Assembly (NCBI GenBank): GCA_030549335.1
Contig: JAUKPH010000017.1
Span: forward strand, 9,199,501-9,263,500
Reading direction: 5' to 3'
From: Pontederia crassipes
Taxonomy: Eukaryota; Streptophyta; Magnoliopsida; Commelinales; Pontederiaceae
Length of the DNA stretch: 64,000 nucleotides
The translations under genes were made by a program, and so were the position numbers. Shown piece after piece: positions 2,936-60,839 of this stretch. Position 1 is the first letter of the stretch. Each line of letters starts with the position of its first letter. The notes under the pieces are model-generated. The model saw only the letters and a program-made list of their open reading frames with translations, did not search any database and had not been told where the DNA came from.

Positions 2936-2940
2936 GATAG
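2936..2940. repeat. Target site duplication GATAG (left)
   Basis: GATAG sits directly before the TG that opens the 5' LTR. It matches exactly the GATAG directly after the CA that closes the 3' LTR at 11147-11151. A 5-bp duplication is standard for LTR retrotransposon insertion. Confidence 0.9.
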
Positions 2941-5207
2941 TGTAATAACCGACAAAAAAAAGAAAAGATAAAAAAAAAAGAGGAAGAATCGAGTTTGACT
3001 CAAATAACCGGCCAATAGATAACATAACGTTATCTTATTAAGAGTAGAAAAAAAAACGTATCCATAGGGGATGAATCCTATTTGATTTAAAGAGACCTAG
3101 GAGATAAAACCCAAAGAAGATATTAAAATCCTCCCAAGGAACTCACGAAAACCTCTTTTTCCCCTAACCCTCACGGTCTCCTTTCCCCTTGGCTTGCTGT
3201 CCTGCACACGACTTGAGAGGAGGCCGCCCCTGGTCGTTTTGCAGCAACCACTGATCTGCTAGGAGAGAACAAGGCGCAGGGAGAAGGGAGGGGATGCGAC
3301 CGATAGTTTTTCCGACGAACGAAAAGAGGGATTAATCGCGAACCGAGGTGGGTGAATCGAAATCACCTTGCATGGCCTCTGAATTATCTCAATTCATGCC
3401 CGAATCGTTATGAAAAGAATATGAATATGATTCAAGTTATTGTTTTTAATTGTTTGATTTCTTGAATTCTTTGATTGGTTGATTGTTGCATGCATAGTTA
3501 TTTTCTGTTTGTTATATTTCTGTATTATTGATTGCTAAGGTGTAAGATTTAGAGAGGATTTCGTTTTCGGTCTTATAACGCAATTTAATTTTTAAAAGTA
3601 GAAGTATTACGGCCGTAAAAAAATTGTTTGGCCGTAATTTTCTTACGGTCGAGAAAAGGGATAGAGAGGTAGAGAATTTCGGCCGTAAAGGAATAGAGAG
3701 AATAGAATTTCGGCCGTAAATGAATAGAGAGAATAGAGTTTCGGCCGTAAAAGAATAGAGAGAATAGAATTTCGGCCGTAAAAGAATAGAGAGAAAAGAA
3801 GAGAGAGAAAAGGGAAATAGATTGTTACGGCCGAAGAGTTAGGTTTTCGGCCGTAATAAAATAGAAAAGAGAGAGAGGGAAGACGTCGGCCGTAAAAGAT
3901 GTCGGCCGTAAAAGATGTCGGCCGTAATAGATGTCGACCGTAACAGATGAGTTTTACGGTCGTAAAAATCCGAGAAGTTGGGAGAGAGAGAAACGAAGAG
4001 AGAGAAAAGGGGAGATGGGTTGTTACGGCCGAAGAGTATAGTTTTACGGCCGTAACGGGATAGGCCGTAACGGATGGGAGTAACAGATGATGGCCGTAAC
4101 GAAATAAGAGTTGAATTATTACGGTCGAAATAGAATAGAAAATAGGGTTTTACGGCCGTAACGTAATTAAGGGTGGATTTTTACGGCCGTAAAATGAAAG
4201 AATTCCTCGGGCGTAAAATCCAAAGAATTAGGGTTTTACGGCCGTAAGGTGGAGGAGATTCTTTGGGCGAAAAATCCAACAAAATTTACCTATTAATCTC
4301 TCTTTATTTTTATATGAATATTATTGATTTCTTTATAATTCCAACATGAACTCTTTATCTTGATTTACCTCATACCGATCATATCTCCTTCATCACATGA
4401 TACAAAGAATGAAAAGATAATAAAAGTGATTAATAAGTTCAGATGAAAGATTAATGATGGGTTGCCAGTCCAAGCCAAGTGCATCAAGATAAGGGTCGCT
4501 CCCTTGGTCATGGTTTGATCACCCATTGACCCGCACAAGGCCGTATCGTTTGCTGGGCATACCCCAAGAATTAAAGGCACCTCAAAGTCACCCTGATTGT
4601 TAATTAATAACCAAGATCGACAAGCATGTTCAAGTTCAAGTTCAAGTCAAGTCAAGTATGTCATGATTCCAAGTTTACTATGTACTATTGATCCTCATGA
4701 TTCATGATATCGTTGATCTTATCCTTATTATGATTCATGATACTTGTATGTTATCTTTCATGCTCAAGTTAAGCCTGATTAATTATCGCTGATTATTATA
4801 TTCATGTCATGCATTGTATATCATGTGGTTCCCCACTAGGCTGTAAAGCTTACGGGAGGACCTCCTCCCCTGTGTCTGATTTCCACAGGACCAGGTCAGT
4901 AACGTGGTGGAGTAGGCGTGTGGTGATGAGGCTCTGGCGATAGGACAGCACATGAACCATAGGGCTTTTAGAGTGTTATTTAGTTTTCATTTACCTTCCG
5001 CATTTTAGATTTATGATGTAGAACTTATTTTATTTCTTTTAGACTTCCGCAATTAAAGTTATAATTTATCTTCATTTCTTTTCTTCCGCTGACGTGTCTC
5101 GGTTCTTGACTGAGATATGGTCAATATGATGGTCAAAGTCATAGCATGCCGTAGCGTCTCCAGGTTGGTCTTCGCCACGTGGCGGGGGTCGATCTGGGGG
5201 CGTTACA
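2941..5207 (+). repeat. 5' LTR (2267 bp) of the gypsy element
   Basis: It starts TGTAATAACC and ends GGGCGTTACA, so it has the canonical TG...CA ends. Comparing by eye with the 3' LTR, I count about 17 substitutions, mostly transitions, plus one 16-bp indel. A GATAAAA stretch near 3092 followed by a C/T-rich segment could mark the promoter and start of R, but I cannot fix the U3/R/U5 borders. The LTR contains the CGGCCGTAA motif array described separately. Confidence 0.92.
3607..4260 (+). repeat. CGGCCGTAA / TTACGGCCGTAA motif array in the 5' LTR
   Basis: About 23 copies of a (T)CGGCCGTAA-type motif lie in roughly 650 bp. Five are the perfect 12-bp palindrome TTACGGCCGTAA, for example at 3607-3618. 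Others are half-site variants with TTCGGCCGTAA or GTCGGCCGTAA. Two subarrays are truly tandem: a unit of about 30 bp with AATAGAGAG spacers (about 3665-3790) and a 16-bp GTCGGCCGTAAAAGAT-type unit (about 3890-3940). The remaining copies are irregularly spaced. Protein-binding or RNA-structure roles are conceivable but not shown. Confidence 0.85.
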
Positions 5208-5211
5208 TTTA

Positions 5212-5223
5212 TGGTATCAGAGC
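5212..5223 (+). other. Primer-binding site (initiator tRNA-Met)
   Basis: TGGTATCAGAGC begins four bases after the end of the 5' LTR. This is the usual plant LTR-retrotransposon primer-binding site, complementary to the 3' end of initiator methionyl-tRNA, and would prime minus-strand DNA synthesis. Confidence 0.9.
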
Positions 5224-8200
5224 CTAAAGTTAGGACTCTCTTGACGTCCTAGTGTATAGAATAGTATAGTATGGTAAAAGGTTCATGTGCTATCGCCGTG
5301 CAGTCGCCACACCCTCCACCGAAAAGTAATGTAAGTCAAGCTCATGTTTATGCCAAGTTACTGTTTATTGATGTATTGATATATATTTGATATGAGTGGT
5401 TGATTCCTAAGAAGATTATTCTGTATGGTAGGAATCAACCTAAATGTTATTAGTGTTTAGACAAAAAGGTTCATAAAGGTTACGAACAAAGTGAAAATGA
5501 ATATGTAATAAGGATGTGGATAAATATACTCATGTGAAGAATGAGTCTTACAGATATTTAAAGGGTAAAATATAAGAAATGATTATGTTTCTTATAATTC
5601 ATATTTTTCATCTCTTTCATGATTGCTCTATTCACAGACTTCTTCTGCTGACTGCAGCAGTATGAAGAGGAAAATGAATAGGCATATCAGTTGCAAAGAG
5701 ATGTAGATTTAAGAAAGAAACGAGAGAATTATAAGAGTAATTAAAGGATTCGACTCACACAACACGTAGGTGTGAGATGATTTCAAATAGTAGAGGTGAA
5801 ACCAAGCATGCATAAGTTATGATTTATGGTGATGACTTATGTGGTTCCATTGGTCTACCAATATAAGGGTTCAATAAATTATCTTATATGTTTATGTTGA
5901 TAAGTATGGACCCATAATGCTTCTTGCGCTTTAGACTTCATATGATCCCTTTATTATGTGGATAAAGGTCCTAATCAAAAAAATAATAATAATAATAAAT
6001 CAAATTAGTTATACGAATTTCTAATTAGATTACCTTATATTGGAAATAGGAATTAGAAAGATTAATCATGTTCAAGTTATGTAAGATTAGTTAAACAATA
6101 ATTTAAGTATTAGTGAGCTGCCCAAGAATCATGCATAAGGTATGGATGGACAAATATAGAAGCTTAAAGTGTTAAGAAGTCACCTTGGCTTGAATAAATG
6201 TTAGAAGGAACTTTCAATGAGTAAGTGACTGGTTGAGTTAATCGAACATTTAAATCTAGCATATTCATACGCATATGTACATATAACATAGTATACTTAT
6301 AAATATATAAAGATAATAAATAATTAGATTTAATTAACTTAGTTTAGTATAGGGTAGATTTGAAATTTTAATATTATGAAGTATATTTTAAATAGCCACT
6401 ATTAAAGAATGAATTCTCTAACATCGCAATGTATATATATTTTCAAAATAGACTAATATGGTTAATACCAGAATTATATAAGAATAAGCAAGGCATAAAA
6501 GAGTTAAATTGGATGTGAGAAATTTTGAAAAAAATTTAAGATATTCTAACTAAGATAAGCTTGAGGAGGCACATGAGCCTCTAGCCATTAAGTATTAAAA
6601 GATCAAAACACCAAGTGAGGAAATTTTTAGAAAGTATGGAAGGGTTAAGGTAAAGTATGAGGAATTTTATAAGTCCCCTACAAGATTTCTGGAAAAGCAA
6701 GTTATGCACCCGAGAGGGATGATTACGCAAGTTTTAATATAATTATAGTTTTCATAATAATGTCAAAACGTATAGAGTATTCAATCATATAATCATGGTT
6801 GATGGTTCAAGAGGGAAAATAAATCATATATGTGTTTAGATAATGGGTTAAGCAAGCCATCGGGTGATACATAGAATGTCCTCTAAGATGCAAGATATAA
6901 GATGATATATAGAATGTTCTCTAAGATGCCTCTACGTCAGTATGATGAAAAATGTTTAAGGTTTTGTCTTGATCAAGTGGACCACTTATGATTTGATCAT
7001 AAGTCTTATAAATGGATTAGTTCTCCTTTCCAACTTTAAAGTTTTCCCGACCCTCTCACATGTACTACAAGATATCGTTAATGCAAAGGATCATGAAATG
7101 ATGCACGAAGAAGAAGAAGAATGATTGCTTGTCTTCTGTTTTGTTGATTGTTTTGTTTTCTTGTCTTATTGTTTGAATTCATTCCATGTGTCAACATGCA
7201 TTCATGATGTTTGACTAAGGACTTATGTTATGTAGTGCACATAAATTATTCTGTTAATTCTGGATTAGAATATACTATGTAGCGACCTCTCAGCGTAGAT
7301 ATCGTTCGACCTTAACATTGATTCAGAGTGCTTCAAGATACTCAAGAAAAAGATTTATTGTGGTCATATATAATCACTGGCCTCCCATGAAATGATATGA
7401 CCTGACATTGCAAGAAACAAATCAATGTAAGCTAAGAAGTTAAGATTGAGGGCAACTCTCATGACAATCATATCAAATAAAGCATTGGCACAATGTGTCG
7501 AGAAAAAAAAAAGGGGGGGATAACAAATGACATTGATTAAGAAACAACCCTATTCCAATGACATAGAATGCCAAGAATGATCCGTCCTCAATTGATTTAA
7601 AGGACTCTTGAGTGATATCAAACATAATTGTCTTATTTGACAATTATTCATTTTTATACTTTATTTAATCCTTTAAGATATCTGATTTAAGATGAAGATC
7701 AAGTGACCATAAAGTCCATGCTAGTGATACTAATGACGATTGAAGATAAGATCTATTTTTCACATCAACTAGAAACTTCTTAGGAGGATTGTGATGGGAT
7801 TTCTATTTGATTCTTCCTCCTAAGATGTATAAGTATTATGCAAAAAGAAGAAGATAGTTACTGGTATCCAAATCGTCTAAAAGGTTATCGTTCGAAGTTG
7901 AGTGTCATATCGACCTCTTTTCAAAGTATGACATTGATTTCTAATGCCCCATGACACATGAATCGAAAAGACAAATTTAATAACTTCAAGACACGGGGTT
8001 TATGAGACTGATGGTCTCATTTTTAGATGCTCCACATCTTTTGTAAAGAAGAATGATGACTATATAAATCTGAAAATTTATTAACAAGTTATTAATTAAA
8101 ATAACCATCAAGACATAAGTGTTTGTTACCATGCAAAGATGACCTATTTAAGACTAGGGATTTTCAAGATCGATCTATGGAGTGAGTACCAACAGTTTTG

Positions 8201-8863
8201 AGTTGTTGAAGAAGAAGTAATGAAGATAATTTTTCATGGCAATGAATGATCACTATAAATAGAGCGATGTCATTGGACTAAGAATACCCCTCAAACTTTT
8301 AGGTCCTTACGAACATTGTGTTCAAACTATGCCCACATTTATGTAGAAAAGATTGAAGTGTTCATAAAAAAAAAAGGAGAAGTACTCGATAAATAACATA
8401 AGCCTGGGTTGCGGTCCATTTAGGAATAAGTCTTATAGGAAGTATGTGATGAATATAATAAGCCTGGGTTGCGATCCATTCGGGAAGGACACGGATGTAT
8501 AAGGATGAATAAATAGTTATGACATGAAACATGGAGATACGAAAATAAGTCCCAAGTACCCAGCATGTCAATGTGAAGAAAAAAAAATAGAGCATCAGAA
8601 ATCCTATTAGATGATGATGCATGACGTTAAGAATTCGTAGACCTGACCTTCGCTGAGTATCCAACGCACATAGTGGAGCGTAAGGTGCAACGCCAGAAGA
8701 ACAATAACGTAACCATGGTCAGAGTAGCTTGGCATTTCCATAAAGGCGATGATGCGACATAGGAGCTCGAGTCGGAAATGCGCCAAGAATTTCCTCATCT
8801 TTTCGATAAGCCCTCTACTTAGTGCAAAATTCGAGGACGAATTTTCTTTTAAGGGGGTAAGAA
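5224..8863 (+). pseudogene. Degenerate gypsy gag-pol interior
   Basis: No reading frame exceeds about 100 codons on the plus strand. From about 7900 to 8350, fragments in shifting frames still resemble the gypsy reverse transcriptase segment, including an FKIDL core. From about 8645 to 8862 the end of pol is recognisable: a WELESEMR-type integrase tail in which the Trp codon is now TAG, then an acidic FEDEF tail. Most of RNase H and the integrase core appears deleted between these two blocks. Two copies of an AAGCCTGGGTTGCG motif about 61 bp apart (near 8401 and 8462) lie in the gap. The gag, protease and upstream part is not recognisable. Confidence 0.75.
8851..8863 (+). other. Polypurine tract before the 3' LTR
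   Basis: AAGGGGGTAAGAA lies directly 5' of the 3' LTR and directly after the acidic pol tail. Its position and purine content fit the plus-strand primer of a gypsy element. Confidence 0.75.
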
Positions 8864-11146
8864 AGTAATAACCGACAAAAAAAAGAAAAGATAAAAAAAA
8901 AAGAGGAAGAATCGAGTTTGACTCAAATAACCGGCCAATAGATAACATAACGTTATCTTATTAAGAGTAGAAAAAAAAACGTATCCATAGGGGATGAATC
9001 CTATTTGATTTAAAGAGACCTAGGAGATAAAACCCAAAGAAGATATTAAAATCCTCCCAAGGAACTCACGAAAACCTCTTTTTCCCCTAACCCTCACGAT
9101 CTCCTTTCCCCTTGGCTTGCTGTCCTGCACACGACTTGAGAGGAGGCCGCCCCTGGTCATTTTGCAGCAACCACTGATCTGCTAGGAGAGAACAAGGCGC
9201 AGGGAGAAGGGAGGGGATGCGACCGATAGTTTTTCCGACGAACGAAAAGAGGGATTAATCGCGAACCGAGGTGGGTGAATCGAAATCACCTTGCATGGCC
9301 TCTGAATTATCTCAATTCATGCCCGAATCGTTATGAAAAGAATATGAATATGATTCAAGTTATTGTTTTTAATTGTTTGATTTCTTGAATTATTTGATTG
9401 GTTGATTGTTGCATGCATAGTTATTTTCTGTTTGTTATATTTCTGTATTATTGATTGCTAAGGTGTAAGATTTAGAGAGGATTTCGTTTTCGGTCTTATA
9501 ACGCAATTTAATTTTTAAAAGTAGAAGTATTACGGCCGTAAAAAAATTGTTTGGCCGTAATTTTCTTACGGTCGAGAAAAGGGATAGAGAGGTAGAGAAT
9601 TTCGGCCGTAAAGGAATAGAGAGAATAGAATTTCGGCCGTAAAGGAATAGAGAGAATAGAGTTTCGGCCGTAAAAGAATAGAGAGAATAGAATTTCGGCC
9701 GTAAAAGAATAGAGAGAAAAGAAGAGAGAGAAAAGGGAAATAGATTGTTACGGCCGAAGAGTTAGGTTTTCGGCCGTAATAAAATAGAAAAGAGAGAGAG
9801 GGAAGACGTCGACCGTAAAAGATGTCGGCCGTAAAAGATGTCGGCCGTAAAAGATGTCGGCCGTAATAGATGTCGACCGTAACAGATGAGTTTTACGGTC
9901 GTAAAAATCCGAGAAGTTGGGAGAGAGAGAAACGAAGAGAGAGAAAAGGGGAGATGGATTGTTACGGCCGAAGAGTATAGTTTTACGGCCGTAACGGGAT
10001 AGGCCGTAACGGATGAGAGTAACAGATGATGGCCGTAACGAAATAAGAGTTGAATTATTACGGCCGAAATAGAATAGAAAATAGGGTTTTACGGCCGTAA
10101 CGTAATTAAGGGTGGATTTTTACGGCCGTAAAATGAAAGAATTCCTCGGGCGTAAAATCCAAAGAATTAGGGTTTTACGGCCGTAAGGTGGAGGAGATTC
10201 TTTGGGCGAAAAATCCAACAAAATTTACCTATTAATCTCTCTTTATTTTTATATGAATATTATTGATTTCTTTATAATTCCAACATGAACTCTTTATCTT
10301 GATTTACCTCATACCGATCATATCTCCTTCATCACATGATACAAAGAATGAAAAGATAATAAAAGTGATTAATAAGTTCAGATGAAAGATTAATGATGGG
10401 TTGCCAGTCCAAGCCAAGTGCATCAAGATAAGGGTCGCTCCCTTGGTCATGGTTTGATCACCCATTGACCCGCACAAGGCCGTATCGTTTGCTGGGCATA
10501 CCCCAAGAATTAAAGGCACCTCAAAGTCACCCTGATTGTTAATTAATAACCAAGATCGATAAGCATGTTCAAGTTCAAGTTCAAGTCAAGTCAAGTATGT
10601 CATGATTCCAAGTTTACTATGTACTATTGATCCTCATGATTCATGATATCGCTGATCTTATCCTTATTATGATTCATGATACTTGTATGTTATCTTTCAT
10701 GCTCAAGTTAAGCCTGATTAATTATCGCTGATTATTATATTCATGTCATGCATTGTATATCATGTGGTTCCCCACTAGGCTGTAAAGCTTACGGGAGGAC
10801 CTCCTCCTCTGTGTCTGATTTCCACAGGACCAGGTCAGTAACGTGGTGGAGTAGGCGTGTGGTGATGAGGCTCTGGCGATAGGACAGCACATGAACCATA
10901 GGGCTTTTAGAGTGTTATTTGGTTTTCATTTACCTTCCGCATTTTAGATTTATGATGTAGAACTTATTTTATTTCTTTTAGACTTCCGCAATTAAAGTTA
11001 TAATTTATCTTCATTTCTTTTCTTCCGCTGACGTGTCTCGGTTCTTGACTGAGATATGGTCAATATGATGGTCAAAGTCATAACATGTCGTAGCGTCTTC
11101 AGGTTGGTCTTCGCCACGTGGCGGGGGTCGATCTGAGGGCGTTACA
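8864..11146 (+). repeat. 3' LTR (2283 bp) of the gypsy element
   Basis: It is colinear with the 5' LTR. The first base is A instead of T, and it carries one extra 16-bp GTCGGCCGTAAAAGAT unit, which accounts exactly for the 16-bp length difference. It ends GGGCGTTACA at 11146. Because it lies on the same strand as the chitinase and only about 845 bp upstream of its start, it could act as an alternative promoter or enhancer. That is inference only. Confidence 0.92.
9533..10199 (+). repeat. CGGCCGTAA / TTACGGCCGTAA motif array in the 3' LTR
   Basis: This is the counterpart of the array in the 5' LTR, with one additional 16-bp unit near 9808-9870. A few motif copies differ by single transitions between the LTRs; for example, a TCGGCC in one LTR is TCGACC in the other. 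Confidence 0.85.
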
Positions 11147-11151
11147 GATAG
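11147..11151. repeat. Target site duplication GATAG (right)
   Basis: This is an exact match to the left copy at 2936-2940, directly after the terminal CA of the 3' LTR. Confidence 0.9.
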
Positions 11152-11990: not shown

Positions 11991-13259
11991 ATGAAGGCTT
12001 CGGCTTTGCTCTCGGCCGCCATTTGCGCGGCCTCCTTGCTCGGCGCCCTGGCCGAGCAATGCGGTTCGCAGGCAGGCGGCGCGCTGTGCCCCGGCGGCCT
12101 CTGCTGCAGCCAGTTTGGCTGGTGTGGAACCACGGCAGAGTACTGCTGCAAGGGCTGCCAGAGCCAGTGCCAGTGCTCCGGCCCGGCCCCTCCTCCGCCT
12201 AGCGGCGGCGGTGTGGCTTCGCTTCTGAACTCCAGCACGTTCGAGCAGATGCTGAAGCGCCGGAACGACCCCGCGTGCCACGCTATTGGCTTCTACACTT
12301 ACGACGCATTCGTGGCCGCGGCGAACTCCTTCCCCGGGTTCGCGAATATCGGAGATGACGCCATCCGCAGGAGGGAGATCGCTGCTTTCTTCGGGCAGAC
12401 CTCCCATGAGACGACTGGTTAGTCTTTTTCCTCATCTCAGCTGAGCGATGCGTGTGGATGCAGCTAATCACTTAGAATTCGGACGTACACAGGTGGAAGT
12501 GATAGGAAGGATGCGCCGGAATGGGGCTACTGCTTCAAGGAGGAACAGTCCGATCGATCTAATCATTGTGTTGACAGCGCGCAGTGGCCATGCGTTAAGA
12601 ACAAGTCCTATTACGGCCGAGGTCCCATTCAGATTTCCTAGTAAGTAGTTTCTGCCTGATCGATCAAGCAACATTTTTTTAAAAAAAATTTAGTACGTTA
12701 ACTGGATCTTGTTTCTCGCTAGCCTTTTTCATAAGTTTCTTTTCTTCAAGTTTTCTGAATCAGAACACTGAGCTCTAATGCATAAAAGTAGCTTCCTGTT
12801 CGCTACGAACTCACCCCGTCCGTCCATCCTTCATGCAGCAACTACAATTATGGGCCGGCAGGGAAAGCCATCGGCGTCGACCTGCTGAACAACCCGGACC
12901 TGGTTTCGACGGACCCGATCATCTCATTCAAGACCGCGCTGTGGTTCTGGATGACGCCGCAGTCGCTGAAGCCGTCCTGCCACGACGTCGTCACTGGGAA
13001 TTGGAGTCCGACGGCAGCCGACAAGTTGGCCGGACGACTGCCGGGGTACGGCGTCATCACCAACATCATCAATGGAGGGGTGGAGTGCGGCAGAGGGTTC
13101 GACGCTCGCGTCGACGACCGGATCGGATTCTACAAGAGGTACTGCGGCCTGCTCGGCATCGGCTACGGGGACAACCTCGATTGCTACAGCCAGAAGCCCT
13201 TTGGCCAAGCGGTGGAACAGCAGCAGCTGCCGCCTGCAGCATCCAGCTACTCCATGTAG
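11991..13259 (+). CDS. Class I chitinase (hevein domain plus GH19)
   Basis: This endochitinase hydrolyses beta-1,4-GlcNAc polymers of fungal walls (PR-3 family). There are three exons: 11991-12417, 12493-12640 and 12839-13259. The introns are 75 and 198 bp, GT-AG, and the joined CDS is 996 nt (331 residues). Residues 1-21 form a signal peptide ending ALA. Residues 22-60 are a hevein-type chitin-binding domain. A Pro/Gly hinge follows, and the GH19 domain starts near residue 80. HETTGG at 139-144 supplies catalytic Glu140, and YCFKEE supplies the second acid, probably Glu160. NYNYG and [11 protein letters not shown] are also present. The hevein domain has nine Cys (YCC where YCG is common). 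After the usual DCYSQKPFG ending, a 17-residue tail may be a vacuolar sorting propeptide. Exon GC is high. The gene looks intact. Confidence 0.95.
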
Positions 13260-29450: not shown

Positions 29451-32400
29451 CAATGTTGTCACGATCACCGAACAACGAACCGAAAAAAGGCTCCATTTTA
29501 GGTTGGACCGGTCGAATCGGTCGGATTGGTCGGTCGGACCGTTCAGTAATAAAATATTATTATTTAATATAATCCATTAAATTTAGACATGTACCAAAAA
29601 AATTTAGACATAATAAGTTAAAAGATTGTAATGAAATAACATCATAATGTTTTAAATTCTAGCAAGTAATACCAAAATAATAGACATTAATAACTAACAA
29701 CAAGACAACAAGTAATTCATATGCCATAACTTTAAAATTAAAATTCAAATTTCACAATCACATGACATAACTTCAAGTTCACAATCACATGTCATAACTT
29801 CAAAATCAAAATTCAAAGTTCACAATCACATGCCATAACTTCAAATTCAAAGATCAATTAAATTCTAACACAAACTACAAGTTCAGTAGTTCACATATCC
29901 ATGGCTTCAAATACAAAATACAATATCAAATATCATTCTCTTCTCAAATAATCTTCATCTTCTCGTGGAAAAGAATCCAAGTTAAAATCCATAGCTTCAA
30001 TCCTTTCTTCTTGCACATCACCTTGTAAAAAAAAGATAAATTAATAATATACAATAAATCAACTATTATAATGATGCATAAAATAAATAATCATTTAAAT
30101 TTTTACCTTCTTGTGTACAAACTTTTGGACATCCAAATCATTATAAATATTTTTTTCTAACTCATCATAATCAAGTAATGAAGCATCTTCATCTTCTACA
30201 ATTCAATAATCAATCTTTTCCATACTTTCATAATCAATGGGATCAAGAAGAGATTTCTTCTTGTTAAGAGCCCTATAAAACAAAGAAACATATATAATCA
30301 ATCAAATATGAACTATAATTTTTTTATAAATAATAACTTTTTTGTAACACATACCTATTTTTCAAACCCATATTATAATGAACATACACAAGATCATTTA
30401 ATCTCTTGTGTTCTAACTTATTTCTTTTCTTTGAATGTATCCTTTCAAACACACTCCAATTTCTCTTACAATCAGAAGAAAATGCAATTTGGCTTAATAG
30501 TCGAATTGCCAATTGTGATATTATTGGAGCATTAAATCTAAAACTATGCCACCATTGATCTGTCATAAAATATAATATAGAAAGATTAGTAACACTTAAC
30601 AAAGTTAATGATATACAAAAAATTAAAAAATGAGATTATTACCTAGTCTTAACTCCTTAGTTGTTTCAATAGTTAAGTGATTACCAAAGCTTATGATTCG
30701 ATCATGATATAGCCAAATTTGTTTTAAGGCTTCAATTTTTTATGTGTAACAAGTGTGTTCAATACATCAAGTCATCCTTGTTACACTTCTGGTTTGATAC
30801 AAAAGTTCTCTGTCATAAAAAAATGCGGGATTAAAAAAATATGCAGCATAATGAATCTTTTTGCGAAGTTGATTATCCCATCTATTCTTGATGATTCTTG
30901 TATAAGACTTGTACAAAGATCTTTTCATCATAAATATTTCCTTAATTGTTTTCTTTGCTCTGTAGATGCCATCATATACATAATCAACTGAAGGTTTATC
31001 ATCTCCATCAACAATTCTTAGCAATCGAACCAAAGGAGCTACAACTTGCACAATAACACCACAATCATTCCAAAACCTACTATACAAGATAATAGCAAAA
31101 CGAGTTACTCTAGGACGTAAAATTTCAGTCCAATTTGATCTTTTTCTTAACCAAGCAAGTAAAAATGGATGATTATAAATAAACTTTGTCACCTTACTTG
31201 CTTTTTCTATCAAAACAGTCACAAGCTTCATTTTTTCAAGATCTCTTAAGATCAAATTCAAATAATGTGCAATACAAGGAGGCCAAAAAATAGTAGAATA
31301 CTTTTCATTCAATAATCTACCTGCAGCTTTATAATTTGCAGCATTATTTATAATCAAGTGCACAATATTTTCCACTCCAACAAATTCAACCAATTCCACA
31401 AATAAATTACAAAGAGTTGGGGCATCTTTAACAATATTAGAAGCATCAACTGATCTAACAAAAAATCCTTTTAGAGAATAAATGAGAAAAATAATCAGTT
31501 GTCTATTCTTTCGATCTTGCCAACCATCATCCATGATAGTGCAACCAGTTTCTTTTCAAGCATTTCTAAAAATTTCAACCAATAATCCTACCTCCTTCTT
31601 GATATCATATAATAATTTAGTTCTAATAGAATGATAAGAAGACCCTTTGTATCCCGGACCAATAGCATCTATTATGAGTTGATAATAAACTAAATTTGCA
31701 CAGTTAAATGAAATACAATAATCATAAAAGAATCTAGCAACAACCAAATCAGCTTGATATATAACATCTTTATCTGCCATAGCACTTCTAATAGAAGGTT
31801 GTGCACCATGACTTGTCCTTGGAGCAAAAAAAGTGGTTGCATTTGTTATTTCCTTTCCCTTCTCTTTTGCAACTTGTTCTTGTGAACATTGAACATCTAC
31901 ATGTGACTGTTGACTAGAATTTACTTCATCTCTTTGATCAATGTTTTTTTCTTGGATGCAGATGCCACTTTCAATTGCTCTCCAAGAAGATACTTCACCT
32001 CATGACTAACTTTAGGACAAGACATTACGTCTCCTTTTTGTCCTGCAAGATACATCTTCATTCTATGTATTCCTCCACCCTTAAAAACTTTTGCACAAAA
32101 TAAACATTTAAACCATTTTTTCCTTCGGCATCATAACAAATTTGGCAATGTTCCCATGCAACATGAGTACTAGCAATTGCAAATTGAGTGTTCGATGCTA
32201 CTGTTTGAGATTCACCAGCACTACTTCCGGCAGATGCCATGATTTAAGCCTACATAGTATAATCAAGATAATAATATAATCAACAAATAATCAAGACAAA
32301 AATAATCACTGATCACATCACATTTCACATTGCATAGCTTAGTAATTAGTACACAACTACATTTACTACTCTATATCACATTTTTTATAAGCAATCAATA

Positions 32401-33514: not shown

Positions 33515-33812
33515 TAGGTCACTTTTTTTCTTCCCACAACTCTTATTACCTTTTGAATATTTTGTGACTTTGAGATAATAAAATATCAACTAACAGAAAT
33601 CTTTTTTCCCGGCATTTTACACTTTTGCTTTTAAGTTTTAACAGAGGTTATAGTTGCATAATCAGCTGTGTAAATTAAGAAATAATAAATAAATAAATAA
33701 TATGTTAAACCCGCTCGATTCTTAATTAAAAAATTCAAAAGCCCTAAAAAGAAGTAGCCGACTCCCCCTTGCTATCACGAACCTGCACGTCGGCGACGAA
33801 CTCCCATCTCCG

Positions 33813-36008
33813 ATGAGCCGCCGCCTCTCCCTCTTTCTCCGCCACCGTTGCTCCTTCTCCTCTTACGCCTTCTCCCGAGCACAACACCCTCGTCCCACCT
33901 TCCCTCCGCCGCTGCAGCCACCGCCCCCGCCTCGGTCTCCTGCTCCACCTTTCCTCGCCGGAGACCACCAACATCGCCGCCTTCTCCCGGCAGTTTCAGA
34001 CCCCCTCGCACCCTCGAACGACCCAACGAAGCTTCTCCATGACGATCCCATCTCCCTCTGCTCTGCGATGTGGCTCGACAGCTTCCGCGACCCCTCCGCC
34101 ACCGCCACGAACATCTCTCCGCACCTTCGTCGCCTGGAGCTTTGGGTTCTCGCCTACCAGAAGGTATACGCCGACGAGACCGGCTCTTACCTCCCCAAGT
34201 CCTCCGTCCCTCCGGTCGCCCTCCATTCTCTCTTAGCCCTTCGCAACGCCGTTCTTGATGGCCGCTTCCGCTGGGGCGCCCGCGTGAACCTTATCCTGCG
34301 GTCGCCGCGCGATACCACTGACCCTGCTACTCTTTCCAAGCGCAAGCTCCGTGCACTCTTGACCTCTACCCAGCCACCGCCCTTCCAGGACCGGGTCGTC
34401 CAGGAGGTCCTCCTCATGATCCTCGAGCCTGTTTTCGAGGCTCGGTTCTCCCAGAAGTCATTTGCCTTCCGCCCAGGTCGCACGGCTCACACCGTCATCC
34501 GCACCATTCGCCGCAGCTTTGCTGGATACTTGTGGTACATCAAGGGCGATCTGAGCACAATCCTGGATGACGCCAAGCCGGGATTCATCATCAATGCATT
34601 CATACGGGACGTTAGGGACAAGAAAATTGTTGATCTGATCAAGTCAGCCCTCACAACACCAGTCATCACTGGGAGGCCGATCGATGAGGCAGAGGCCAAG
34701 AAGAAGAAAAAGAAGCGGAAGTACCAGAAAAAGCGAGTCTTAGCGGAGGATGAACCAAAGCCAGATCCTTATTGGCTCCAAACCTTCTTTGGTTTTGCCC
34801 CAGAGGAGGCCGTGAAGCTACCGAATTGGGGGCATTGTGGTGTCCTAAGTCCATTGCTTGCAAATGTATGTTTGGATGAATTTGACAAATGGATGGAAGA
34901 GAAGATTAAGGAGTTTTATAAGCCGTCAAAATCAGATGTTATATGGAGAGGGGATGAGGGAGAGCAGGAGAACACATCGTGGCCAGAGTTTGTGCCGACC
35001 AGTGGTCCTGACAAGACACGGAAGATAGACTACATTAGATATGGTGGGCACTTCTTGATTGGAATTAGAGGCCCCCGAGCTGATGCTGCAGTACTTAGGA
35101 AGCAACTTATTGAGTTCTGCGACCAACGGTTTCAGCTTAAATTAGATAATGAGAACCTCCCTATTGAACATATCACTAAAGGGATCATGTTTCTGGACCA
35201 TGTGTTGTGTCGCCGAGTAGTTTACCCAACATTGAGGTATACAGCAACAGGAGGGAAGATAATAAGCGAGAAGGGCGTTGGCACGCTCTTATCAGTCACT
35301 GCAAGCCTTAAGCAATGCATAAAACAGTTCAGGAAATTGGAGTTCCTGAAGGGTGATAGGGACCCCGACCCACAACCCTGTTTTAGGATGTTCCATGCTA
35401 CCCAGGCACACACAAACGCTCAGATGAACAAGTTCTTACAGACCATGGTTGAATGGTATAGGTATGCTGACAACCGTAAAAAGGTGGTCAATTTTTGTTC
35501 TTACATCATAAGGGGTTCTTTGGCTAAGCTTTATGCTGCCAAATATAAGCTAAGATCAAGAGCAAAGGTGTACAAAATTGCATCTAGGAATCTAAGTCGT
35601 CCTTTGAAGGAGAAGAAAGGGCAGTCACCAGAATACCAAAACTTGATGAGAATGGGCTTGTTAGACTCGATTGATGGGCTTCATTATACCCGGATGTCTT
35701 TGGTGCCTGAGACAGATTATACTCCATTTCCTAGTGGGTGGAGGCCAGATCATGAAAAGGTTTTGTTGGAATACATAAGGTTGTTGGATCCTAAGTGTCT
35801 AGAGGAGCAGAGAAATCATCTCAGTGAAGAAGGGCTCATAACACCACAAGATAATATTTCAATGCTTGTTTGGAATTACAAGAAAAATGCTCTTGCATTG
35901 CCCCCTCTAGGGGAAATTGATTTCGAGAGAGCCAAGGAAGAGCTATTGGAGTTGAGTAGAGACAAACTCCGGGATAGGATAAGTGATAGTGAGAAGAATG
36001 AATTCTGA
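33813..36008 (+). CDS. nMAT2: Nuclear-encoded organellar group II intron maturase, nMAT2-like
   Basis: This intronless gene encodes 731 residues, close to the plant nMAT1/nMAT2 size. Nuclear maturases are imported into mitochondria (some also into plastids) and help splice group II introns. The first 50 or so residues are Arg/Ser/Pro-rich with few acids, like an organelle presequence. Reverse-transcriptase-like blocks run from about 130 to 480 (RVVQEVLLMILEPVFEARFS; FAFRPGRTAHTVI). The YADD catalytic motif is replaced by Y410-GGH, so reverse transcriptase activity is not expected. A Lys-rich insertion lies at about 290-310. Maturase domain X spans about 541-605 (VEWYRYADNRKKVVNF). There is no C-terminal HNH domain, which points to nMAT1/nMAT2 rather than nMAT3/nMAT4; nMAT2 is my best match from memory. 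GC falls sharply from 5' to 3'. Confidence 0.88.
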   Translation: MSRRLSLFLRHRCSFSSYAFSRAQHPRPTFPPPLQPPPPPRSPAPPFLAGDHQHRRLLPAVSDPLAPSNDPTKLLHDDPISLCSAMWLDSFRDPSATATNISPHLRRLELWVLAYQKVYADETGSYLPKSSVPPVALHSLLALRNAVLDGRFRWGARVNLILRSPRDTTDPATLSKRKLRALLTSTQPPPFQDRVVQEVLLMILEPVFEARFSQKSFAFRPGRTAHTVIRTIRRSFAGYLWYIKGDLSTILDDAKPGFIINAFIRDVRDKKIVDLIKSALTTPVITGRPIDEAEAKKKKKKRKYQKKRVLAEDEPKPDPYWLQTFFGFAPEEAVKLPNWGHCGVLSPLLANVCLDEFDKWMEEKIKEFYKPSKSDVIWRGDEGEQENTSWPEFVPTSGPDKTRKIDYIRYGGHFLIGIRGPRADAAVLRKQLIEFCDQRFQLKLDNENLPIEHITKGIMFLDHVLCRRVVYPTLRYTATGGKIISEKGVGTLLSVTASLKQCIKQFRKLEFLKGDRDPDPQPCFRMFHATQAHTNAQMNKFLQTMVEWYRYADNRKKVVNFCSYIIRGSLAKLYAAKYKLRSRAKVYKIASRNLSRPLKEKKGQSPEYQNLMRMGLLDSIDGLHYTRMSLVPETDYTPFPSGWRPDHEKVLLEYIRLLDPKCLEEQRNHLSEEGLITPQDNISMLVWNYKKNALALPPLGEIDFERAKEELLELSRDKLRDRISDSEKNEF

Positions 36009-57971: not shown

Positions 57972-60839
57972 TCATACAGCCAACTTCTCTTCATCTAATC
58001 CAGGCACTGCTACATCATCTCTCATCAGCCCAGCATAGCGCTCCCCAACAGTGGCGCCTGCCTGGGCGAGGAGTTCCACTGCTGCTGGAAGTTTCCCATA
58101 ATACCTCCTCAGCTCATTTACTAGTGGCTTATCACTCTGCGGATCAGGTACATGCCATACGTACATGGGAGGCACAAGATCGTCTATGGTAGCTTCCTGC
58201 CAAGCGTGCTGCCCGTCCCTCATCTGGTGCTTGTAAGCCTGGCAGATCCTTGCCCGATGACCTTTTGGCCCAACCTGAACCTCAGGACAAAATCCACATG
58301 TTTGAACAGGGTATTTTTCCATGAGCTTTGAGATTCCAGACTGAACCTTTTCCCAAGCTTTCATGCCTTGTGTAGCTATATCTGTACCAGGATGCATCCA
58401 GGATTACATAAATGAAGGAAAACAAGATTTAAAAGTGTATACAAACAGATAGAAGAACATCAACCGCAAAGTGTTAGCTCTGCACATAACATTTATTTGA
58501 AATTGAAAATATCATCACAGTGCTGTATTGAGATTGGACTAGTGGAATGTTTCCTTGAATTGTTACAAGTTTGGTAAAAGTAACACACTGCACAATCAGA
58601 ATGGAAGAGTTATGTCTGGATTCATCCTCCTCTATCTAGTTATGGACTCCGATGTATGTTACAATTCGTTCTAGTAGCTATACAAAGTTACGAAAGAATA
58701 TAAAGTGAAACAGGCATGCGTCCTTGATGGGTGGATAGACCAACAGAAACTGCAATTTTGGGCTTGACAATCTGTAATCCCGGGTAGATGCTTTCTCAAG
58801 GAAATCTTGCTGTATTAATCACTGACATTTCATCACATTTGCAGTTGTTTTTGTAATTTCTACAGCATAACATTTGCTGATCTTCCCTTCTTTGATCTCT
58901 TTTAACAATCCATAAACCAAATTTACCAATCTTAGATCTCCTTTAACATGGTGTTTGCTAAGTGCGCAAAATTCCTCCACAGTATTTTTCAGTCAAGCAG
59001 GGTGTCATCACTCGTAAGTAAATATCTCACTAACGTCTGTTCAAGGATGATCAAGATGTGCTATTTGGGCGTGCATCTCTGTTCTTTCTTTTCCTTGATA
59101 CGTTTCTTTAAGCATTTCATCCAGCTACTTTCTATAATAATAATAATAATAATAACAATATATATATGTATATATATATACTCTTTAGAATTGCCCTATT
59201 CAACACGAGTTATATTGCAAAATAGTCAAAACATAGTCATTTATACTGATCAATTGTCCATTGCGATTAAAACTCAAAGAAATATTGAAGACGTGTTTTA
59301 TGGTGCTTTTATCTATCAAACATATTTTCTAAAGCCCTCATGATCTGTAATATATGCAATAATCATCAAAGAGACTTCTAAAGTCTGATAAGTTTGACTC
59401 TAACTGGCACACGAAAAAAACAAAAGCATTTTATAAGAGAGTTTCTATGACTTCATATAAATGATATAGTTTGAAAAGACTTTGAAGTATGTTATATGTA
59501 TATACATCAATCTCTTTTAATCCTATCAGGCACAAAGTAGGGTTAGATAAGAACAAGGGCCATTTGAAACATTGAATTCACCACCAAAGTATAATATGTA
59601 CAGGCTTTCTCAGGAGCACCTAAACTCACACTTGTTTTTCTTAAAACTATACTCGAGGTCAGGTCATGAGTAAAACAATTTATATCTTCACATGAAAGCT
59701 CCAAAAATCAATTAGTCATATGTACGAAATACTGAAGTTGCATAGCTAACAAGCTTCAATCAGTTCCATAGCATAGGGGGAAATAATTTTCTGCAATTTC
59801 TCATCCCATCGACAATTAATAAAAAAAATTGTAAGTCATCTGTCACAGGTGCTATAGGCATGTTACTCCAACCTAAGAGCCGAAGCGATGAAATAGGCAT
59901 ACCTTGGATGCTATCGAGAGGCGTAAATTGTGGATTACCAGCATCATTTTGGCTCACCTTCTTCCTTTTCTCCCAAAATCCAAATGGGGTGATATCTTTC
60001 CCACTAGTATAATCTCTAGGAAACTTCCTCTCAAAATCGATCATCTTTCCAGCAATGTTATAAACTGGAAACACCCTTCTCTTTGTCGGGTACTCTGGAA
60101 TGTCGACTCCTGCTTGCACACACAGCTCCACAACCGCAGGGATCCTATCCACCAGCAGCCGCTCCTCATGCGAAACTGCTCTACCCAGCCTGTCATATAG
60201 ATGGAACGACTCAACCAGAGGGAGAACATGCTCAGTTCCACCCCTAACCCACCTGTGCAATCTCGTGGACAGGCTACCCGAAACATTGCAAGTACGTATC
60301 TGATGGGGGACTCTTCCCACATGAACTTCGCCACACACACTGCATCGTTGAGCAATCACACAAGTCACGGAATAGAACAGCACAGTGATCTAAATGTATC
60401 AAAATTTTGTTTTTCTTTTGTTTCTTTTCAGTAATAGAAGTATGAACTAAAACAAGCTCAAGCGATGCGACATCGACTACCTGCAGACGTGAACGGAGAC
60501 GGCCTCTATGACCTGGGAGACGCAGCTGAACAGCCTGTTCCGGGCGCTGTAGACGTCGCGGGCGACAGGGATCAGGCTCCTGACAAGGAGGCCGTTCTCT
60601 GGCGGGCGCAGCGCGATCTCGCGCACCTCCTGCCGCGACTTCCTCTCGGCCCTCGCCAGCCGCTTGAGTTCGGTGATGCCCGTCACGAGCGGCTTCCTCC
60701 GGGAGCCTCTTCGCCTCGTCCGGAGGTCGGCGTGTTCGGCGGAAGCGGCGGCGCAAAAGGAGGAGGAAAGGGTTGCCGGAGTATGCCGAGGGATCACGCC
60801 GTGGCGGTTCGTAAGGACGTGGATTCGCCTGGACAGCAT
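57972..60839 (-). CDS. APO3: APO-family organelle RNA-binding protein, APO3-like
   Basis: APO proteins bind organelle RNAs; APO1 is established as a group II intron splicing factor. Three exons on the minus strand: 60839-60481, 60339-59873 and 58381-57972. Introns are 141 and 1491 bp with GT-AG borders, and the joined CDS is 1236 nt (411 residues). The ATG at 60839 is the first in frame; the frame stays open further upstream but without ATG. The N-terminus (MLSRRIHVLTNRHG) is Arg-rich and lacks acids, so mitochondrial or plastid import is likely. There are two APO motifs, each with paired Cys: CSVCGEVHVG (from residue 119) and C304GFCPEVQVGPKGH. PAVVELCVQAGVDIPEYPTKRR and HQMRDG-HAWQEATIDD are also characteristic. 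The second repeat fits APO3 best from memory; APO1 and APO2 are the alternatives. Confidence 0.88.
58382..59872 (-). other. Large second intron of the APO gene
   Basis: The intron is 1491 bp, with a GTTGGA donor after Leu-Leu and a TACAG acceptor. It contains an AAT/TA microsatellite at about 59138-59180. Short ORFs inside it on either strand are not convincing. Phase-1 joining of the flanking exons restores an uninterrupted frame. Confidence 0.75.

Follow-up and report, generated by a model that had tools for sequence, protein, structure and literature searches.

Arrays of palindromic CGG-CCG boxes in the long terminal repeats of Ty3/gypsy-type retrotransposons of Pontederia crassipes: candidate docking sites for a DNA-binding factor

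Introduction

The long terminal repeats (LTRs) of Sireviruses, which are Ty1/copia retrotransposons, carry boxes termed RM, palindromes of the CGG-CCG type that number from 8 to 32 per element (Bousios et al, 2010, PMC2829016). The RM array begins 200-400 bp after the start of the LTR and spans 300-500 bp; the boxes form CpG islands that are followed by a TATA box after 37 bp on average, and they are seen again upstream of the envelope gene (PMC2829016). They were termed Sirevirus-specific in comparison with classic Ty1/copia elements, and their function was left open by the authors (PMC2829016). In maize, palindromes in the LTRs of Sireviruses have been described as a cis-region and as hotspots of small RNAs (Bousios et al, 2016, as cited in PMC10760457 and PMC5311732). 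Here we describe an array that, judged by its sequence, is of this RM-array-like kind and lies outside the Sireviruses. It is found in both LTRs of a Ty3/gypsy-type, non-autonomous retrotransposon at positions 2941-11146 of a 64,000-nucleotide stretch of the Pontederia crassipes genome (assembly GCA_030549335.1, contig JAUKPH010000017.1, positions 9,199,501 to 9,263,500), referred to as the window.

Results

The box array of the window element

The box has the core CGGCCG and the outer bases TTA...TAA, with TTACGGCCGTAA as its perfect palindrome, GGCCGTAA as the half-site and CGGCCGTAA as the nine-base word used for counting. The two strands of the window hold 42 exact matches to CGGCCGTAA, 20 of them in the array of the 5′ LTR, 21 in that of the 3′ LTR and one at 12611, while 100 dinucleotide shuffles of the window gave a mean of 0.09 and a maximum of 1. 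Between 3600 and 4270 there are 23 exact half-sites, and 34 if up to one mismatch is accepted, compared with means of 0.06 exact and 0.81 with one mismatch when the same region was simulated 300 times with a first-order Markov model; shuffles and simulations together rule out a chance origin of the array. The perfect palindromes start at 3607, 4044, 4150, 4181 and 4236 in the 5′ LTR and at 9530, 9983, 10089, 10120 and 10175 in the 3′ LTR. The original prediction of about 23 sites with five perfect palindromes, seen in both LTRs of a retrotransposon and too frequent for chance, is therefore borne out, the LTRs being real as judged by the GATAG target-site copies, the primer-binding site and the purine tract that accompany them (Table 1).

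Part of the array consists of two tandem blocks (Table 1). Collapsing both leaves 18 half-sites and all 5 palindromes in 510 bp, which excludes pure tandem amplification, or a simple minisatellite, as the full account and agrees with the earlier view that slippage is not the only source of the copies. The 17 non-redundant sites have a mean pairwise identity of 0.77, compared with 0.38 and 0.31 for their flanks. The ratio of observed to expected CpG is 1.81-2.48 in eight 200-bp windows, from 3441-3640 to 4141-4340, compared with 0.38-1.18 in the remaining 13 windows of the 5′ LTR, and the GC content of the CpG-rich windows is only 0.28-0.46.

Distribution of the boxes in the genome

Within the host assembly of 1,132,208,429 bases, where the window is C17:9199501-9263500, TTACGGCCGTAA occurs 6,690 times and the reversed word, which served as the only control for the genome-wide excess, 8 times. 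CGGCCGTAA occurs 28,326 and 28,744 times on the two strands (57,070 in all), compared with 893 and 914 (1,807) for its reversed form, and the sister word CACGGCCGTG 7,384 times compared with 203 for its control. A count inside and outside the LTR family had been proposed as a check on the motif: the excess is indeed large, but the boxes are not confined to the window's family and also occur in an Athila-type lineage. Of the first 100 matches listed for CGGCCGTAA, which all lie within the first 1.84 Mb of C1, the sequence of 92 was retrieved and assigned by similarity; 34 lay in or beside the window's LTR family and its relatives, 58 in Athila-type sequence and its relatives, and none elsewhere. 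The 15 palindrome clusters found on C1 among the matches listed comprised 9 window-family LTRs, 2 from a distant related pair and 4 from the other lineage. Wherever they were examined, the CGGCCGTAA places lay in the non-coding control regions of two retrotransposon groups, a pattern suggesting that both groups use the same regulatory docking site.

The LTR family and the position of its array

A search of the genome with the LTR tail returned 3,461 first-look candidates, of which 40 were scored. The copies compared were the closest by their LTR tail (L020-L049) together with loci selected for holding a palindrome (L005-L019); with the two LTRs of the window itself, L020 and L024, omitted, 37 copies were left. 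The array is present in all 37, which come from 20 loci, with 16-32 half-sites, 2-12 perfect palindromes and 7-17 CGGCCG cores, so that the conservation among family members on which the original prediction had been made to depend is found. Family member L010 codes for a gag with the Ty3_capsid domain, and in L009 one frame covers RNase H, H2C2 (zinc-binding integrase), rve and SH3_Tf2-1 (Pfam). A single pol frame in which RNase H precedes integrase, together with the Ty3-type gag, places the family in Ty3/gypsy, an assignment that comes from the domains of these two members, not from the window copy, and that holds at the superfamily level only. The LTR tail is shared at 92-97% by L010, L030 and L036, which have long gag frames.

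Nine relatives that were retrieved become similar to the LTR of the window only from LTR position 362-392 onwards, 16-46 bp 5′ of a splice-donor-like GT (Table 1). When the heads (the 420 bp 5′ of the donor-like site; 39 rows) were grouped by matches of at least 200 bp at 80% identity or more, they fell into 7 groups and one disrupted copy, L039; between groups, matches at E 0.001 were found in just 9 of 28 pairs, the longest being 128 bp at 67%. All heads are joined to a common LTR body near AG/GTGGGTGAA, with AGGTGGGTGAA in 36 of the 39 rows and GATGTGAGTGAA in two. The presence of about seven dissimilar heads on one conserved body near a splice-donor-like AG/GT (window 2941-3347, L009-L049) gives the appearance that promoters or first exons have been exchanged among retrotransposons.

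A canonical TATA box is found in the head, upstream of the array, in 24 of the 39 rows and is missing from 15, which include both LTRs of the window. In the tail just 3′ of the array TATAWAW is matched exactly in 3 of 40 rows, one of which duplicates the window's 3′ LTR, and the acceptor-like GATTTCCACAGG is present in 37 of 39 rows. Because the TATA boxes of the heads lie upstream, TATAWAW is rare in the tail, and donor- and acceptor-like sites flank the array, the array of the window's family probably follows the promoter and is transcribed as part of the leader, possibly within a leader intron. With this placement it would not be a U3 enhancer upstream of the promoter.

Two arrangements were seen among the copies and their relatives. 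Three LTR tails stand in a row at C16:44575585-44588182, C27:1951226-1966311 and C4:45430598-45443343, with spacings of 5845, about 7085 and about 5922 bp, and these nearly evenly spaced triplets are probable tandem LTR-internal-LTR-internal-LTR arrangements. At L006:3384-4045, beside a related LTR, there is an inverse self-alignment of 666 columns at 95% identity.

An Athila-type lineage with the same boxes

Athila-type elements were found at L005, L008, L017, L019, L050 and L051. L005 contains Retrotrans_gag and L050 contains RVT_1, RNase H, rve and ATHILA ORF-1 (ORF, open reading frame; PF03078, E 2.6e-22), and by these predicted domains, which cover gag, reverse transcriptase, integrase and ATHILA ORF-1, L005 and L050 are assigned to Athila; L051 holds a solo LTR, 1775 bp long (486-2260), with GCTGC at either side. 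The boxes occupy three sites in this lineage, namely the LTR, the leader before gag and the linker between pol and ATHILA ORF-1. In L050/L005 the number of CGGCCG cores at these sites is 4, 13 and 13, respectively, and zero in the coding stretches measured (3230, 1026 and 1812 bp). In four of the LTRs the boxes begin within LTR positions 215-249, and 33, 33, 149 and 165 bp separate the start of the last box from TATAAATA; a fifth has its TATA box 38 bp after the last box, so that in all five a TATA box follows 33-165 bp downstream. The observed/expected CpG ratio of four of these LTR arrays is 1.40-1.78. In L008 and L054, by nucleotide similarity to L050, a box-rich stretch stands beside the same ORF region, and the frame of this region in L008 had no Pfam match. 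At L008:3001-3760 the Athila-type leader contains a nested insertion, recognised by eye as the end of a copia-type LTR and the start of a gag.

The arrays of the two lineages have the boxes in common but no long spacer similarity. At E 1e-10 no similarity between their spacers was found, and the best match between the arrays, among the matches listed, was 29 bp at 86% (E 3.5e-5, word size 7).

Replaced arrays and a sister palindrome

At two loci related to the window's LTR the array itself has been exchanged. L060 matches the window at 87% identity over 245 bp 5′ of the array and at 81% over 88 bp 3′ of it, and the corresponding flanks of L052 are 74% and 81% identical, while the arrays of both gave no alignment with that of the window or of L018 (word size 7, E up to 0.001). 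They hold instead palindromes of the CACGGCCGTG type together with CGGTCGACCG, the RM given for the Sirevirus of Vitis (PMC2829016). As these unalignable arrays contain CGGCCG, the position retains CGG-CCG palindromes while the rest, including the outer bases, is exchanged. Clusters of CACGGCCGTG at L061-L063 have no match to either lineage except for 44 bp, and such clusters are thus found both in relatives of the window's LTR and in other sequence.

Rates of change in boxes and spacers

Differences between the two LTRs of one element accumulate after insertion and so represent decay without selection on spread. Within 15 LTR pairs 18 of 2365 box columns and 22 of 7801 spacer columns had changed, a ratio of 2.70, with the boxes changing faster. 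Between LTR copies the ratio of box to spacer change was 0.52, with the boxes changing more slowly (147 of 210 comparisons kept; those with gaps of at least 35% excluded). A control of pooled frequent spacer 9-mers gave 0.91 within pairs and 0.83 between copies. It is on the contrast between the within-pair and between-copy ratios that the argument for selection rests. With disjoint pairings (300 draws; 7 or 8 pairs per draw in the five draws shown) the median odds ratio was 4.0, with a median p of 0.00017 and a largest p of 0.0031.

A multiple alignment of the 28 of 37 copies that were less than 98.5% alike agrees in direction, in that the change rate outside CpG was 0.086 in sites and 0.177 in spacers, though the head (0.066) and the tail (0.024) changed less than the sites. 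CpG decay in this alignment was 65/1031 in sites, 13/142 in array spacers, 38/321 in the head and 10/670 in the tail; that the best-kept CpGs are those of the tail and not of the sites is partly because the copies were chosen by their tail.

Transitions made up 17 of the 18 within-pair changes in boxes; 12 fell on the inner C or G of CGGCCG, which is a CCG context, and 5 on CG positions. This is the pattern that methylated DNA would give, and the mutations of the boxes may report their methylation state.

Structure of the element and neighbouring sequence

The features of the window element are collected in Table 1. Its two LTRs differ by 16 substitutions, 13 of which are transitions, and by one 16-bp repeat unit, and the insertion is recent, as only these changes separate them. 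The primer-binding site we take to be of the initiator-Met type. As no coding sequence was found in the internal region the element is non-autonomous: its longest stop-free plus-strand piece in a frame scan of 5208-8863 is 54 amino acids, and 15 of the 29 plus-strand pieces of at least 25 amino acids were searched and had zero Pfam matches. With LTRs, primer-binding site and purine tract present and the coding region absent, the copy corresponds to a large retrotransposon derivative. A chromodomain remnant suspected by eye at 8631-8822 is not claimed, since 8631-8759 was without a Pfam or PDB match. No known RNA families and no tRNA were detected in the window at the thresholds used.

Table 1. 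Positions of the features of the retrotransposon in the window.
Feature	Positions	Strand	Remarks
Target-site copy GATAG, left	2936..2940	.	Flank of 5′ LTR
5′ LTR	2941..5207	+	2267 bp, TGTAATAACC...GCGTTACA; from self-alignment with 3′ LTR, 98.6% identity
Weak TATA-like TATTAAAA	3121..3128	+	Possible promoter region; CT-rich stretches at 3152 and 3177
Splice-donor-like GT (GAG/GTGGGTGAA)	3348..3349	+	Candidate
Box array, 5′ LTR	3607..4247	.	23 GGCCGTAA half-sites, 15 CGGCCG cores, 5 perfect TTACGGCCGTAA; CpG observed/expected about 2
31-bp tandem block	3661..3800	.	4.5 copies, one box per copy
16-bp tandem block	3880..3949	.	4.4 copies in 5′ LTR; 5.4 copies at 9803-9888
Splice-acceptor-like TGTGTCTGATTTCCACAG	4871..4888	+	Candidate
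Internal region	5208..8863	+	3656 bp; no coding sequence found
Primer-binding site TGGTATCAGAGCC	5212..5224	+	4 bases 3′ of 5′ LTR
Purine tract AAGGGGGTAAGAA	8851..8863	+	Directly 5′ of 3′ LTR
3′ LTR	8864..11146	+	2283 bp; A replaces T as first base; from self-alignment
Box array, 3′ LTR	9530..10186	.	24 half-sites, 16 CGGCCG cores, 5 perfect palindromes; 16-bp unit extra
Target-site copy GATAG, right	11147..11151	.	Flank of 3′ LTR

The element is neighboured by a class I chitinase frame at 11991-12416, whose best PDB match is the chitinase 2dkv, presumably that of rice. The stray CGGCCGTAA at 12611-12619 falls in this gene region, and a single such match fits chance. Further frames in the window are a 760-amino-acid one with a type II intron maturase domain (33726-36008; Pfam, E 4.8e-8), two APO RNA-binding frames (57972-58403 and 59760-60389; Pfam) and a DUF659 frame (30767-31555; Pfam), of a kind found in hAT-like transposons.

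Discussion

We consider that the array is probably a homotypic cluster of palindromic cis-regulatory boxes, which would act as docking sites for a dimeric DNA-binding factor. The factor would most likely be encoded by the host, an element-encoded one being less likely, and once bound it would turn on transcription or keep the LTR open; both the binding and its activating, as opposed to silencing, effect are what we infer from the sequence comparisons. In the window's family it would act from within the leader or the first intron, with the promoter lying a few hundred bp upstream. The arrays themselves grow and shrink by tandem duplication. That the LTR arrays of the Athila type precede the TATA box argues for action as DNA. 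In the window's family the outer TTA/TAA bases are preserved, with A at +5 in 95% and at +6 in 94% of the flanks, which argues for recognition of a sequence over mere CG density.

Several observations weigh against this proposal. The outer TAA, found in 164 of 220 flanks in the window's family, is looser in the Athila type (87 of 208). No helical phasing of the box centres stood out, the best R being 0.42 over 7 periods and 23 sites. As the canonical TATA boxes found in the window's family (24 of 39 rows) are upstream of the array, the array is not a simple upstream enhancer there. It turns over rapidly, even the two LTRs of a pair being separated by gaps of 16, 31, 77 and 207 columns, and in this it resembles drift-driven minisatellites. 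The between-copy ratio of 0.52 is not exceptional on its own, because single control 9-mers span 0.42-1.77 between copies (median 0.92, 31 words), and, given the CCG and CG pattern of change, the contrast with the within-pair ratio could be enlarged by a methylation state that differs between active and silenced copies. The between-copy test moreover favours conservation, as the alignments anchor on boxes and box columns require one intact copy. The evidence for selection is therefore graded as moderate, and it is at this strength that we interpret the slower change of the boxes between copies as selection. The suggestion that the site is under selection nevertheless fares well, in that the boxes behave as if selected, both in this slower change and in the core kept by the replaced arrays.

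Of the alternatives, the one that survives best, while still unlikely, is an epigenetic role, in which the dense patch of CG and CCG cytosines sets the methylation of the LTR, either as protection or as a silencing target. It would be in keeping with the high CpG ratios of the arrays in both lineages, with the transitions at the inner C/G and CG positions within pairs, and with the small-RNA hotspots reported at Sirevirus palindromes (PMC10760457, PMC5311732). It would leave without a reason the outer TTA/TAA, which contains no CG or CCG cytosine and is kept in the window's family, if less so in the Athila type. Slightly less probable again is a neutral minisatellite, that is, multiplication without function by slippage and unequal exchange. 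The two tandem blocks, the 16-bp unit gained or lost between the LTRs of the window element and the large length changes within other LTR pairs are all of the sort such a process would leave, but the half-sites that persist after collapse, the similarity of the non-redundant sites relative to their flanks, the same box in a second lineage without long spacer similarity and the core retained in the replaced arrays of L060 and L052 are difficult to reconcile with it. The least probable is pairing of the boxes in the transcript leader for dimerisation, packaging, splicing or small-RNA production. The RNA hairpins of the original prediction could indeed fold (z -11.05 relative to shuffles, 0 of 20 as good), and the array of the window's family is probably in a leader between donor- and acceptor-like sites, with acceptor-like sequence also following (by eye) the leader array of L005 and the pre-ORF-1 array of L008 and less clearly in L050, but such a fold is a trivial consequence of repeated palindromes and the Athila-type LTR array, upstream of the TATA box, lies outside the 5′ end of the transcript.

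Comparison with known systems

In the literature searched the one match to TTACGGCCGTAA concerned enterokinase expression in E. coli, and no retrotransposon title was among the matches listed for CGGCCGTAA and GGCCGTAA. Nor was there a title on a Ty3/gypsy CGG-CCG array among the literature matches listed, as judged by titles in a search that left subscription papers mostly outside. The LTR of Tnt1, a Ty1/copia element and the comparison originally offered, reportedly carries repeated short activator boxes; the likeness to the repeated short boxes described here is one of description only. In VANDAL elements the anti-silencing protein VANC is sequence-specific and targets arrays of a short motif in non-coding sequence of the transposon, a situation similar to that proposed here except that VANDAL is a DNA transposon that encodes its own factor. 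Retand shares with the present families its Ty3/gypsy type and short tandem arrays in non-coding parts; it differs in that its arrays lie between pol and the 3′ LTR and are made of family-specific repeats, no palindromic CGG-CCG box being described in the accessible part of the source (PMC11963269).

The closest known kind, in place of Tnt1, is that of the CGG-CCG palindromic motifs of Sirevirus LTRs (PMC2829016). Like these, the boxes are CGG-CCG palindromes, numerous and gathered in a CpG-rich cluster of the LTR, the 15-16 CGGCCG cores per LTR of the window element and the counts in the 37 other LTRs comparing with the published minimum of eight per whole element. The Athila-type layout is particularly similar, with LTR boxes that start at a comparable position, a TATA box following them and boxes again before the ORF in the envelope position. 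The palindromes of maize Sireviruses likewise form highly variable arrays in the regulatory part of the LTR, with a different palindrome, CACCGGACNNNGTCCGGTG, in a Ty1/copia element (PMC10760457, PMC5311732). The window element is not itself a Sirevirus: its junction is CA/TTTATGGTATCAGAGCC, compared with the published CA/ATTGG with the primer-binding site TATCAGAGC, and, as to Ty1/copia coding sequence, no coding sequence was found in the window copy and its family members carry Ty3-type domains. The coding region likewise sets the Athila-type lineage apart from the Sireviruses. Sireviruses further have multiple copies of the purine tract upstream of the 3′ LTR; one tract was seen in the window element, where no search aimed at more was made. 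The systems also differ in that Sireviruses are Ty1/copia and the boxes here belong to two Ty3/gypsy lineages, that TTACGGCCGTAA, with zero bases between CGG and CCG, is absent from Table 3 of PMC2829016, that one box is common to different families of one genome, that the Athila-type lineage has an extra array in its leader, and that the array of the window's family lies downstream of the likely promoter.

As a tentative extension, which we regard as possible and do not favour at present, CGG-CCG palindromes might constitute a regulatory code shared by plant LTR retrotransposons of both superfamilies, acquired independently in LTRs, leaders and pre-envelope linkers by Sireviruses, the Athila-type lineage and the other Ty3/gypsy lineage, and read by one class of host factor, with array cassettes and promoter heads being swapped around a constant core palindrome and the outer bases changing in concert (TTA/TAA to CAC/GTG), as though tracking a changing factor or escaping silencing. 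If the boxes do bind one factor, it would provide a common switch for insertions of different lineages, with tens of thousands of sites in one genome, and the feature termed Sirevirus-specific would be a wider, convergent solution of plant retroelements.

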